64,000 nt of DNA from Shinisaurus crocodilurus (taxonomy: Eukaryota > Chordata > Lepidosauria > Squamata > Shinisauridae). Shown one piece after another: positions 17,959-51,106 of the stretch. A program made the translations under genes and the position numbers. Position 1 is the first letter of the stretch, and every line of letters begins with the position of its first letter. The DNA lies in assembly GCA_021292165.1 (NCBI GenBank), contig CM037877.1:30640197-30704196 (forward strand), in the 5' to 3' direction. A model generated the notes under the pieces. That model did not search any database and was not told where the DNA came from. It saw only the letters and a list, made by a program, of their open reading frames with translations.

Positions 17959-18163
17959 TCGAGGTACATATTGTCCTAGGCCAGTCAAGTCATTTCAGCC
18001 CTTTGAAGCAGAAAATCTCACAAGTGCCTCTCTACCTTCCTGGCAACAAAACCACAAACTTAATAAATTAAATACCAGACAATTTGTTGCCCTTCCATGA
18101 CAGCCAAAATCTGATGCCTGAGGCAGCTGCCTCACAGTGCCTAATGGTAGGGCCAGCCCTCTG
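17862..18163. mobile_element. hAT-type MITE related to 43283-43581
   Basis: Left end ACTGGCCCAGGAC..TTGCCTGAGGCAGA, right end TGCCTAATGGTAGGGCCAGCCCT. These are the two subterminal blocks of the CAGGRCYGGCCC family seen at 43283. A CG/CA tract (17911-17958) has expanded inside it. Ends are approximate. Confidence 0.55.
17911..17958. repeat. (CG/CA)n alternating purine-pyrimidine tract
   Basis: About 48 bases of alternating GCGCGCGCACGCGCGCACGC passing to CACACA. Such tracts can adopt Z-DNA. Confidence 0.95.
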
Positions 18164-23934: not shown

Positions 23935-24540
23935 CCTGCTCAAGACCTTAGGTCATCTTCAGAGGCCCTCCTCCGGGTGTCCTCCCAAAGGAAACTAGGT
24001 GGTGGCTACAAGAGAGAGGGTCTTCTCAGTGGTGGCATCCCACTCATGGAATAAACTCCCCAAAGAGGTTCACCTGGCTTCTACATTGTCATCTTTTTGG
24101 CGCCAGGCAAAGACCTTTCTTTTCTCCCAGGCATTTTAGAGACCTAGTTCTAGGTTATTGTGGCTGTTTTATAGATTCCTGCGCTGCAGGACCGGTGCAA
24201 GGCAGTTTGGCGCCCTAGGCAAGATCAGATATTTAGCGCCTCCCTTCCCACTTGAGAGCGCTGTATTTTTCCCCCAAGGCATTTCTGGTGCCCCCTTTAG
24301 CCCTGCGCCCTAGGCAGCTGCCTAGTTGGCCTAATGGTAGCATCGGCCCTGCTGCGCTGTGTACTGTTTTACATTATATTGTATTTATTCATTTAAATAT
24401 TTGTATTGTATTTTATATTTTTAACTGTGTTTTAAAATGACATTTTAGTTTTTTAACTGGTTGTAATCTGCCCAGAGAATGTTATTAGGCAGATAAGAAA
24501 TGTACAAAATAATAATCATCACGATGATGACGATAATGCC
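23935..24540 (+). mobile_element. L2-like LINE 3' region split by a hAT MITE
   Basis: 'aggccctcctccgggtgtcc', 'gagagggtcttctcagtggt', 'tggaataaactccccaaag', 'gccaggcaaagacctttctt' and the AT-rich 3' UTR ending 'gttgtaatctgcccagagaa' are the ordered landmarks of vertebrate L2-type LINEs. Continuous after removing 24187-24351. Similar copies: 35963-36308 and 55200-55770. Confidence 0.75.
24187..24351. mobile_element. hAT MITE, 165 bp, exact TSD (short form of the PRKACB-carrying element)
   Basis: Termini CAGGACCGGTGC and GCATCGGCCCTG. Exact 8-bp duplication CTGCGCTG (24179-24186, 24352-24359). Subterminal blocks GCAGTTTGGCGCCCTAGGCA and CTAGGCAGCTGCCTAGTTGG are shared with 43583-44344. This is the plain element without cargo. 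Confidence 0.9.
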
Positions 24541-43282: not shown

Positions 43283-43581
43283 CAGGGCCAGCCCTATCAT
43301 TAGGCAGAGTGAGGTAGCTGCCTAAGGCAGTAGATGCTGGGTGGGGAGGAGTGGTGGCAAAGTGTTGGAGAACAGAGTTGGACATGCCACACACGGCCTG
43401 GCCTGCACCCCTAAGCTAGCCAGTTAGTCTCAGATGTGGTGGAGGACTTGGCCCATCACCAGTGTTGAAATAAGGTTCAACCACTAGTCCAGCTGGCTTC
43501 TGTACATGGAATGGAATGGGGGTGGTGGTGGTGGCATCTTGTCCTTTGCCTCAGGCAGCACAATAACTTGGGCCAGTCCTG
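43283..43581. mobile_element. hAT-type MITE (CAGGRCYGGCCC family)
   Basis: Left CAGGGCCAGCCCTATCATTA with TAGCTGCCTAAGGCAG, right TTGCCTCAGGCAGCACAATA with GGGCCAGTCCTG. 17862-18163 is a relative. Another hAT element (43583-44344) inserted at its right end, using AGTCCTGG as target. Confidence 0.75.
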
Positions 43582-43582
43582 G

Positions 43583-44344
43583 CAGGGCCAGTGCAAGGCA
43601 GTTTGGTGCCCTAGGCAAGATCAGATATTTAGCACCCCCCCTTCCCACTTGAGCCGGCTACTGGGCCAAGGAGAAGGAGGGGGGCTGTCAGTGCAGCGCA
43701 GCCCGCCAAACTAGGCTTTAGGGCCTGCCATTGGCCATCCTGGTGCACCATGTTAAGGGGGAGAAGGGAAAGCGAGCTGGCGGGCAGGCTTCCCTCCCTC
43801 CCACCCTGGAGCCAAAGGGTTGCCTTCGCACTCGCTGGCTGGCTCACTCACCGCTCTCGATCTCGTTGCCCTTCTTGGCGGTAGCAGTGTTCCCCATGGC
43901 CAGGCCGGGGCGAGCAGCGGGAGGTCGGGTTGCTCCATTCATCCAGTGGGGAAGGGCAGGAATCCTGTCTGCGTGTCAAGCCTGGCTGGGTGATGCGGGT
44001 GGGTGGACTGGCGCCTTCCCTCCCCTCAGCACTCGGCGTCACTCTATCTTCTTTCTCCCCGCTCTGGGGTCTCCGGGAGACCGGCGGCGGCGAGCACACT
44101 TTCTTGCTTACTTGCCTGCCTGTCCTCCTCCCTCCGCAACTCACACATGGCGGAAATGACGGCCGCCGAAGCACCTCCTTCTCCTGAGTTGCCTCCTTGC
44201 TGCTGCCGAAGGCTCGCCAAAACCTCAGTATTTTAGCCTGTTTTTTCCCCCAAGGCGTTTCTGGCGCCCCCTTTAGCCCGGCGCCCCCTTTAGCCCGGTG
44301 CCCTAGGCAGCTGCCTAGTTCGCCTAATGGTAGCACCGGCCCTG
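43583..44344. mobile_element. hAT-type element carrying a captured promoter and first exon
   Basis: 762 bp. Termini CAGGGCCAGTGC and GCACCGGCCCTG; target duplication AGTCCTGG (43575-43582) / AGCCCTGG (44345-44352), 7 of 8. Both subterminal blocks match the 165-bp element at 24187: GCCCTAGGCAAGATCAGATA on the left up to CCCACTTGAG (43653), and from about TTTTTTCCCC (44241) to the right end. The 587 bp in between (43654-44240) has no counterpart in the short element, is GC- and CpG-rich, and contains a PRKACB-like first exon on the minus strand. Pack-type gene capture is the simplest reading. Confidence 0.85.
43852..43897 (-). pseudogene. PRKACB: Captured PRKACB-like coding exon 1
   Basis: Minus strand, ATG at 43897: 15 codons reading MGNTATAKKGNEIES plus one base, then donor G|GTGAGT (intron from 43851). 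Exon 1 of the cAMP-dependent kinase catalytic subunits has this layout: N-terminal Gly for myristoylation, the AKKG(S/N)E..ES motif, and a splice after the first base of the next codon. The ATAKKG wording favours the beta gene (PRKACB) over alpha (AAAAKKG). CpG-rich sequence upstream of the ATG (43898 to about 44240) probably represents its 5' UTR and promoter. No further kinase exons follow, so this cannot make a kinase by itself. It might act as a start exon for downstream sequence, but I see no evidence of that. Confidence 0.82.
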
Positions 44345-44547
44345 AGCCCTGGTCTGAGTAATCTGCATTATATGTGAGTTCAAAGGGCATACATAGTCAT
44401 GAAGTTTAGATCCAAAAAGTCTGTCCTCAGAGTCAGATTGGGCAGATGCACTGAAGTCTTAACAGAACAGCTTAACAGAACAGCCGCCTTTATCCTAATG
44501 CAACCTAGAGCATGGCTGTTTAAGGGCCAAACTGCATGTTATGTCAT

Positions 44548-49769: not shown

Positions 49770-51106
49770 AGAAAAGCATTTTGAGGAGCATATTGCTGAC
49801 AACATCAAGGTCAACAATAAAGAATTTTTTTAATATATCAGAAGCAGAAACGAGCTAGGGAAGCAATTGGACTGTTGGATGAAAATGGAGTTAAAGGAGT
49901 ATAAAGGAGCATAAGGAGATTGTGGAGAAGCTGAATTAATTCTTTTCATCTGTTTTCACTGCAGAAGATATAGGACAGACACCTGTGCCTGAACTGATGT
50001 TTTCAGGAAGGGAGTCTGAGGAACTGAGGCAAATAGTGGTGGCAAAAGTTGAAGATCTCAACCTTATTGACAAAGTGAAAGTTAATAAATCACCAGGCCC
50101 AGATGGTATCCATCTTATAGTTCTTAAAGAACTCAAATATGAAATTGCTGATCTTCTAACAAGAATATGTAACATATCCCTAAGATCAGCCTCTGTACCA
50201 GAGGACCGGAGAATGGCCAATGTAACCAGGGCCGGTGCTACCGCTAGGCAGACCCAGGTGGCTGCCTAGGGCACGTGGCGGAACAGGGCGCAGCGTTTCT
50301 GCGCCCCTTCCTAGCCTCCGGCGCGCTCCTGCCCCGCCTGCCGCCTCCGCCGCGCCTCCCCGCCCGCCTGCCAGCCTCTGCCACCGCCGCCGCTGCACCT
50401 CCCCCCCGCCCGCGCCCGCCCGCCAGCCACCTACCTACCTTCCCGTCGTTTCTGGAGCCCCGCCGGCGTTGTTTTGGCGGGAGGAGGAACAGGGGAACAG
50501 GGCTTAAACAGCCCTGTTGCCCTGGTTTCCCCGGCAAAAAAAAAAAAGCGTGGGGGTCCCGTCGCGTTGGAGGAGGCGGTGGCAGCAGCAGCCAGCAGCA
50601 GGGGCGGGGGGAAGGTAGGTGGTGGTGGGGCGGCGGCGGGGCAGTGCGGGGGGGTTGCAGAGCAGGGCTGCTTTGCTCCAGAGCCCCCCCCACGGCACGA
50701 GAGGGGGGGACGCTAAATATAATTTGGCCTAGGGCGCCAAACAGCCCTGCACCGTTCCTGAATGTAACACCAATTTTTAAAAAGGGATCCAGGGAGGATC
50801 CGGGAAATTACAGGCCAGTTAGCTTAACATCTGTTCTGGGTAAACTGGTTGAAGGCATTATTAAAGATAAAATTACTAAGCATATTGAAGGACAAGCCCT
50901 GCTGAAAAAGCATCAACATGGCTTCTTCAAAGGTAAGCCCTGTCTCACTAACCTTTTAGAGTTCATTGAGAGTGTCAATAAACATGTGGACAGGGGTGAT
51001 CCAGTGGACATTGTTTACTTGGACTTGCAAAAGGCTTTTTGACAAAGTGCCTTACCAAAGACTCTTGAGCAAACTTAGCAGTCATGGAATAGGAATAACC
51101 TTAACA
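49770..51106 (+). pseudogene. CR1 LINE reverse-transcriptase fragment, split by a hAT element
   Basis: Frame 49985-50226 includes the RT start motif KSPGPDGIH and LKELKYEIADLLTRICN. After the insertion the frame resumes at 50761 with PIFKKGSREDPGNYRPVSLT, KHQHGFFKGKPCLTN and VYLDLQKAF. These are ordered CR1 reverse-transcriptase motifs. An extra T near 51040 breaks the frame before DKVPYQRLLSKL, and the catalytic YADD region is absent. A dead 5'- and 3'-truncated fragment; its endonuclease domain is missing. Confidence 0.92.
50227..50760. mobile_element. hAT-type element, 534 bp, exact TSD
   Basis: Termini CAGGGCCGGTGCTACC and GCACCGTTCCTG. Exact 8-bp duplication AATGTAAC (50219-50226, 50761-50768). 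Subterminal GTGGCTGCCTAGGGC and TTTGGCCTAGGGCGCC resemble 24187 and 43583. The interior is very GC-rich (CCGCC and GGCGG repeats) without a recognisable gene. It splits the CR1 reverse transcriptase, and the ORFs that cross it are artefacts. Confidence 0.92.

Follow-up and report, generated by a model that had tools for sequence, protein, structure and literature searches.

We are close to certain that a Pack-hAT bearing the 5′ end of PRKACB arose by a single capture in the genome of Shinisaurus crocodilurus, was amplified and gave rise to a chimeric offshoot, with a cargo that is most likely passive. One copy of this family, here called type 1, is a non-autonomous hAT element with PRKACB DNA at 43583-44344 (plus strand) of the window, by which we mean the whole stretch of 64,000 nucleotides analysed (C2:30640197-30704196 of the 2.19-Gb assembly). 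The parent, both junctions, the copy number and the offshoot can all be read in one assembly, which makes this rare and well-preserved example a clean case for hAT capture and re-shuffling.

Short terminal inverted repeats beginning with CAG are a defining motif of hATs, and the window element has them: its termini, CAGGGCCAGTGC and reversed CAGGGCCGGTGC, agree at 11 of 12 positions. It is bounded by the target-site duplications AGTCCTGG (43575-43582) and AGCCCTGG (44345-44352), which share 7 of 8 bases, and duplications of 8 bp, likewise expected of hATs, are found among the type-1 copies. The window also contains a short sister element of 165 bp without cargo (24187-24351, plus strand), flanked by a perfect 8-bp duplication, CTGCGCTG. 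The earlier note had claimed that the termini of both elements match, and had named this as a point on which its reading could fail; the match stands on both sides at E 9.4e-23 (left, 71 columns with 91.5% identity; right, 108 columns with 78.7% identity) and recurs in many copies with target duplications. The hAT left end (43583-43653, plus strand) is common to 24187-24256, and the hAT right side and right end occupy 44226-44344 (plus strand), including a conserved right end of 64 bp (44281-44344).

Between these ends lies the captured DNA, in minus orientation (43654-44225), of which 43654-44210 is covered by the BLAST alignment to the parent and 44211-44225 was assigned from the reading of the junction. 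The cargo had earlier been placed at 43654-44240; the alignments, read by eye, bear this out from 43654 to approximately 44225 and assign the last ca. 15 bases to the hAT side. The interior 43654-44240 has 63% GC and an observed/expected CpG ratio of 0.56, versus 0.28 over the whole window. On its minus strand we read, as originally described, ATG plus 15 codons (MGNTATAKKGNEIES) and a G at 43897-43852, the coding part of PRKACB exon 1, followed by the 5′ splice site GTGAGT (43851-43846). Downstream of the exon is the start of intron 1 (43654-43851, about 200 bp, containing the splice site), and upstream are about 328 bp of CpG-rich upstream or 5′ untranslated DNA, a candidate promoter (43898-44225). 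At codon 4 (43886-43888) the window copy reads MGNTATAKKG; in the parent and all 13 remaining full copies this position is Ala.

In a genome search with the whole element, among the best 40 scored of 3137 first-look candidates, one locus (C2:167778863-167779430) matches only element positions 72-628 and has no detectable hAT ends. The alignment of the cargo with this locus spans 576 columns, with 513 identities (89%) and 27 gap columns, and the minus strand of the locus reads MGNAATAKKGNEIES plus G, then GTGAGT. Within the 220 kb fetched around it, a PKA catalytic subunit is encoded on the minus strand in 10 coding pieces that follow in order over 77 kb. Exon 1 lies at 167779099, about 55 kb from exon 2, and the final piece ends at 167702044. 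The protein joined from these 10 pieces is 100% identical, over its full length, to PRKACB from Crotalus adamanteus (the name "beta" is the source record's own label). Its identity to alpha subunits is 94%, both from Pogona (100% of the query covered) and Anolis (96% covered), and three matches scoring higher than the Crotalus adamanteus protein are other proteins with 74–87% identity. The parent of the cargo is therefore PRKACB. The origin of the cargo proposed in the earlier note was thus correct, as was its content, since the alignment with the parent includes upstream CpG-rich DNA as well as part of intron 1. The other point on which that reading could have failed, a cargo matching no PRKACB upstream, exon-1 or intron-1 sequence, is thereby answered within this genome. 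The two features that define a Pack-TIR are therefore present: host sequence between both ends of one TIR element, and a parental copy elsewhere, at C2:167778863-167779430, without the element.

Other hAT copies with the same cargo, for which a genome search had been suggested, do exist. When only the cargo was used as query, we obtained 19 candidates and scored every one of them: 14 full-length copies, three partial copies, the parent and, in the exon region, one weak match of 94 bp at 80% identity, possibly a paralog. The parent and the 13 other full copies match the window cargo at E ≤ 2e-180, far beyond chance. Two of the full copies, L013 and L014, show 98.6% identity across 1249 bases, flanks included, with one duplication in common; because of these near-identical flanks and the common duplication they represent one insertion, probably through a duplicate contig. 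This leaves 13 separate full-length insertions that are alike in their chimeric structure and differ in their target duplications, as in a multicopy Pack-TIR. The duplications of 15 type-1 rows (14 full, one partial) agree at 8/8 bases in 12 and at 7/8 in three, two of the latter being a single insertion. Both junctions are common to the 14 aligned full copies, barring point changes, with local deletions beside the left junction in L015 and L016. Compared with the parent, a majority consensus built from 13 copies shows 11 differences in 549 ungapped columns, or 5 in 427 once CpG columns are set aside. Beside the right junction, 11 bp present in the copies are absent from the parent. Summed over the 13 copies, 100 of 5621 non-CpG sites (1.8%) differ from their own consensus; at a lizard neutral rate that we take to be about 0.8e-9 per site per year, this divergence would correspond to roughly 20 million years.

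These copies allow an evaluation of whether the carried exon does anything. In principle, the family could consist of functional mobile first exons, with element-driven transcription and exon 1 spliced onto downstream exons at some sites, a reading that we consider improbable. Several features agree with it: the donor GT is kept in all 14 full copies and the ATG in 12 of 13 distinct copies; exon columns vary somewhat less (14/585) than those on the intron side (82/2528) or upstream (207/4113); CpG stays above the level of the DNA around the window copy; a scan with a few motifs found TGACG half-sites and an ETS-like site inside the cargo; and chimeric transcripts are reported for some Pack-TIRs (Tan 2021, PMC8277862). 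Against it, the codon changes amount to seven replacement and six silent ones (13 copies, few sites), and the share of replacements expected under a simple mutation model is 58–74%, according to how strongly CpG is weighted; 7/13 is therefore compatible with no constraint. Under this simple model, and for these 15 codons, the proportion neither shows nor excludes constraint, and the exon changes fit neutral drift. Moreover, one copy (L004) lacks the ATG and another (L007) lacks Gly2, the residue needed for myristoylation, and the GC boxes (-486, -473) and CCAAT (-585) of the parent, located by scanning for a few motifs, lie outside the cargo. A query of 23 residues around exon 1, too short for this purpose, had no match among solved structures. 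Chimeric transcripts from the putative mobile promoter are possible, and passive carriage is a simpler reading than either promoter activity or such transcripts; the cargo is thus most likely passive. Working mobile first exons, in the sense that at one or more insertions transcription starts in the CpG-rich cargo and the myristoylation exon is joined by splicing to a host gene, appear decidedly improbable. If they existed, new N-myristoylated chimeric proteins would have arisen in this lineage; transcription of any copy would mean that a start codon has been dispersed together with a myristoylation signal and a splice donor.

Passive or not, the cargo was acquired in one capture followed by repeated transposition, because the copies have both junctions in common. 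It might be argued that the same CpG island was captured several times independently, without amplification, and the nearly star-shaped tree of the copies would agree with this. The junctions are nevertheless identical on both sides, and the copies have common differences from the parent, such as a C at the fifth cargo base, for which we rejected independent captures as very improbable. Nine of the 12 inner branches of the tree are open and, because of this poor resolution, the single founder rests on the common junctions and not on the tree. A processed retrocopy or a gene duplication of PRKACB, with hATs nearby by accident, would explain the shared exon and nothing further; the cargo includes intron 1 and upstream sequence, the match ends within intron 1, and the copies combine the same junctions with independent 8-bp duplications, which leaves this explanation with practically no probability. 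A retrocopy is excluded by the intron sequence, and the capture at the DNA level that had been deduced from it, together with the upstream sequence, holds. Hardly credible, too, is the reversed direction, in which a hAT insertion would have given PRKACB its first exon, and we rejected it because the parent locus is without hAT ends in the 220 kb fetched, where BLAST with the short hAT element found no match, the similarity to the parent extends no further than the cargo, and the rattlesnake PRKACB record has the same exon-1 peptide.

Among the best 40 of the 3137 candidates of the whole-element search, we found further elements that match the window element at positions 1 to ca. 115 and 699-762 and differ in the middle. 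Nine of these elements, designated type 2, were aligned; they have the same hAT/PRKACB junction and ca. 44 bp of PRKACB intron, and past this intron fragment they switch to the sequence of a third, GC-rich hAT family (L049, L050 and L051). This family has internally repeated and inverted blocks, and its right part continues the chimeric type 2. The target duplications of the nine type-2 rows agree at 8/8 bases in seven cases, at 7/8 in one and at 5/8 in another.

To count fused left junctions we scanned the genome with a 44-bp pattern across the junction, allowing up to three mismatches, which retrieved 61 places (not all of them proven to be separate insertions) and none with the reversed control. 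Thirteen of the 61 are type 1 (10 full, three partial copies), the other four full type-1 copies having more changes or indels at the junction pattern. From the remaining 48 places we checked 38, and all belong to the second, chimeric hAT family: for 28, a match to the type-2 interior (among the best 40 of 322 first-look candidates) is found no more than 700 bp away, four were read directly (L022, L024, L025 and L028) and six more were read separately.

The relationship between both types can be partly deduced from shared and fixed differences. The C at the fifth cargo base, a difference of type 1 from the parent, is also found in type 2, in 14 of 15 copies read, and in 12 of 13 type-1 copies, the thirteenth (L015) being deleted there. 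At one left-end site, 13 type-1 rows have T versus C in the nine type-2 rows and the short element of the window; at a second site, type-2 rows have G versus A in type-1 rows and the short element. Because of these fixed differences, type 2 probably branched off earlier than the spread of the type-1 copies sampled, as judged from these two sites, and the order of events between type 1 and type 2 is uncertain.

Our reconstruction of the origin of the family is that a short non-autonomous hAT acquired ca. 570 bp of PRKACB 5′-end sequence, comprising the upstream region, coding exon 1, the splice donor and the start of intron 1, with genomic DNA copied into the interior of the element. The most likely route is a switch of template at short homologies, either in replication or in gap repair; for multicopy Pack-TIRs, Tan 2021 (PMC8277862) likewise proposes replicative template switching and subsequent transposition. 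A possible homology for the switch is seen on the left side of the captured DNA, where the parent reads CACTGAGCC and the short element reads CACTTGAG, and TGAG at the left capture junction (43650-43653, plus strand) may be microhomology. The 11-bp difference at the right junction may have arisen later, when the parent lost bases between GCC repeats. The Pack-hAT then moved to 13 or more sites, with a separate 8-bp duplication at each, using hAT transposase presumably supplied in trans from elsewhere. In addition, the left ca. 115 bp of a PRKACB-bearing element, including ca. 44 bp of intron, joined the right part of the GC-rich hAT family, and the resulting type-2 chimera was amplified to dozens of places. 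The order of capture, spread and chimera formation given here is itself inferred.

The window family is a multicopy Pack-hAT, a kind already described in Tan 2021 (PMC8277862), which surveyed 100 animal genomes and counted 370 Pack-TIRs, including 208 hATs and only four multicopy cases, with a preference of multicopy Pack-TIRs for GC-rich DNA. On these figures, Pack-hATs are not so rare in animals (208/370) as had been supposed; rarity does apply to multicopy cases (four), and gene-capturing DNA transposons with multiple copies are rare among the animal reference genomes surveyed so far. Among the examples in that paper, the frog hAT-N8_XT with the CAPSL 5′ UTR resembles the present family in being a hAT with host DNA between its ends, an identifiable parent and several copies with different target duplications. 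Its cargo is 291 bp of 5′ UTR found on three chromosomes, whereas here there are 14 full copies with upstream DNA, a coding exon, a donor and intron, as well as a chimeric offshoot at dozens of places; one frog multicopy case is said to number five copies (PMC8277862). In Drosophila, Ssk-FB4 (Tan 2021, PMC8277862) likewise involved capture of upstream and genic DNA at the DNA level and repeated transposition, although it holds a nearly whole gene, is transcribed and has reported signatures of positive selection, and the coding part of the PRKACB cargo is limited to its first 15 codons. The Pack-TYPE elements of plants, Pack-hAT among them (PMC8903248), are also non-autonomous DNA transposons with gene fragments, in plants instead of a vertebrate, and form clusters of more than 100 elements in maize. 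With respect to the Pack-TIRs presented in the passages cited, the family is set apart by its unusually high copy number, its coding first exon with donor and its chimeric offshoot. We found no earlier description of a PRKACB-carrying hAT among the matches listed in a search of titles and abstract beginnings of the open-licence PMC literature.

Related elements occur in and beyond the window. A third hAT with related ends (50227-50760, minus strand) has a perfect duplication, GTTACATT, and a fragment of a LINE reverse transcriptase as its neighbour; the family of its GC-rich interior numbers 3692 first-look candidates (best 40 scored). The neighbour element in L005 (L005:297-982, minus strand) is a further hAT whose ends are the same and whose GC-rich interior contains, by eye, signal-peptide-like reading frames. 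This interior could be another captured gene start, and a parent was not found among the best 40 scored of 1494 first-look candidates; because both families are high-copy, the parents of their cargoes are not separable by search. An Rfam scan of the window had no match at gathering scores, and Pfam analysis of five chosen window ORFs identified one ZSWIM4-8 C-terminal domain and one reverse transcriptase, with three ORFs lacking a match. The former corresponds to a C-terminal coding stretch of a ZSWIM4-8 family gene at 5562-6467 (plus strand; Pfam E 2e-77). Finally, 18115-18160 is a lone fragment resembling the hAT right end, with 79% identity over 48 columns.
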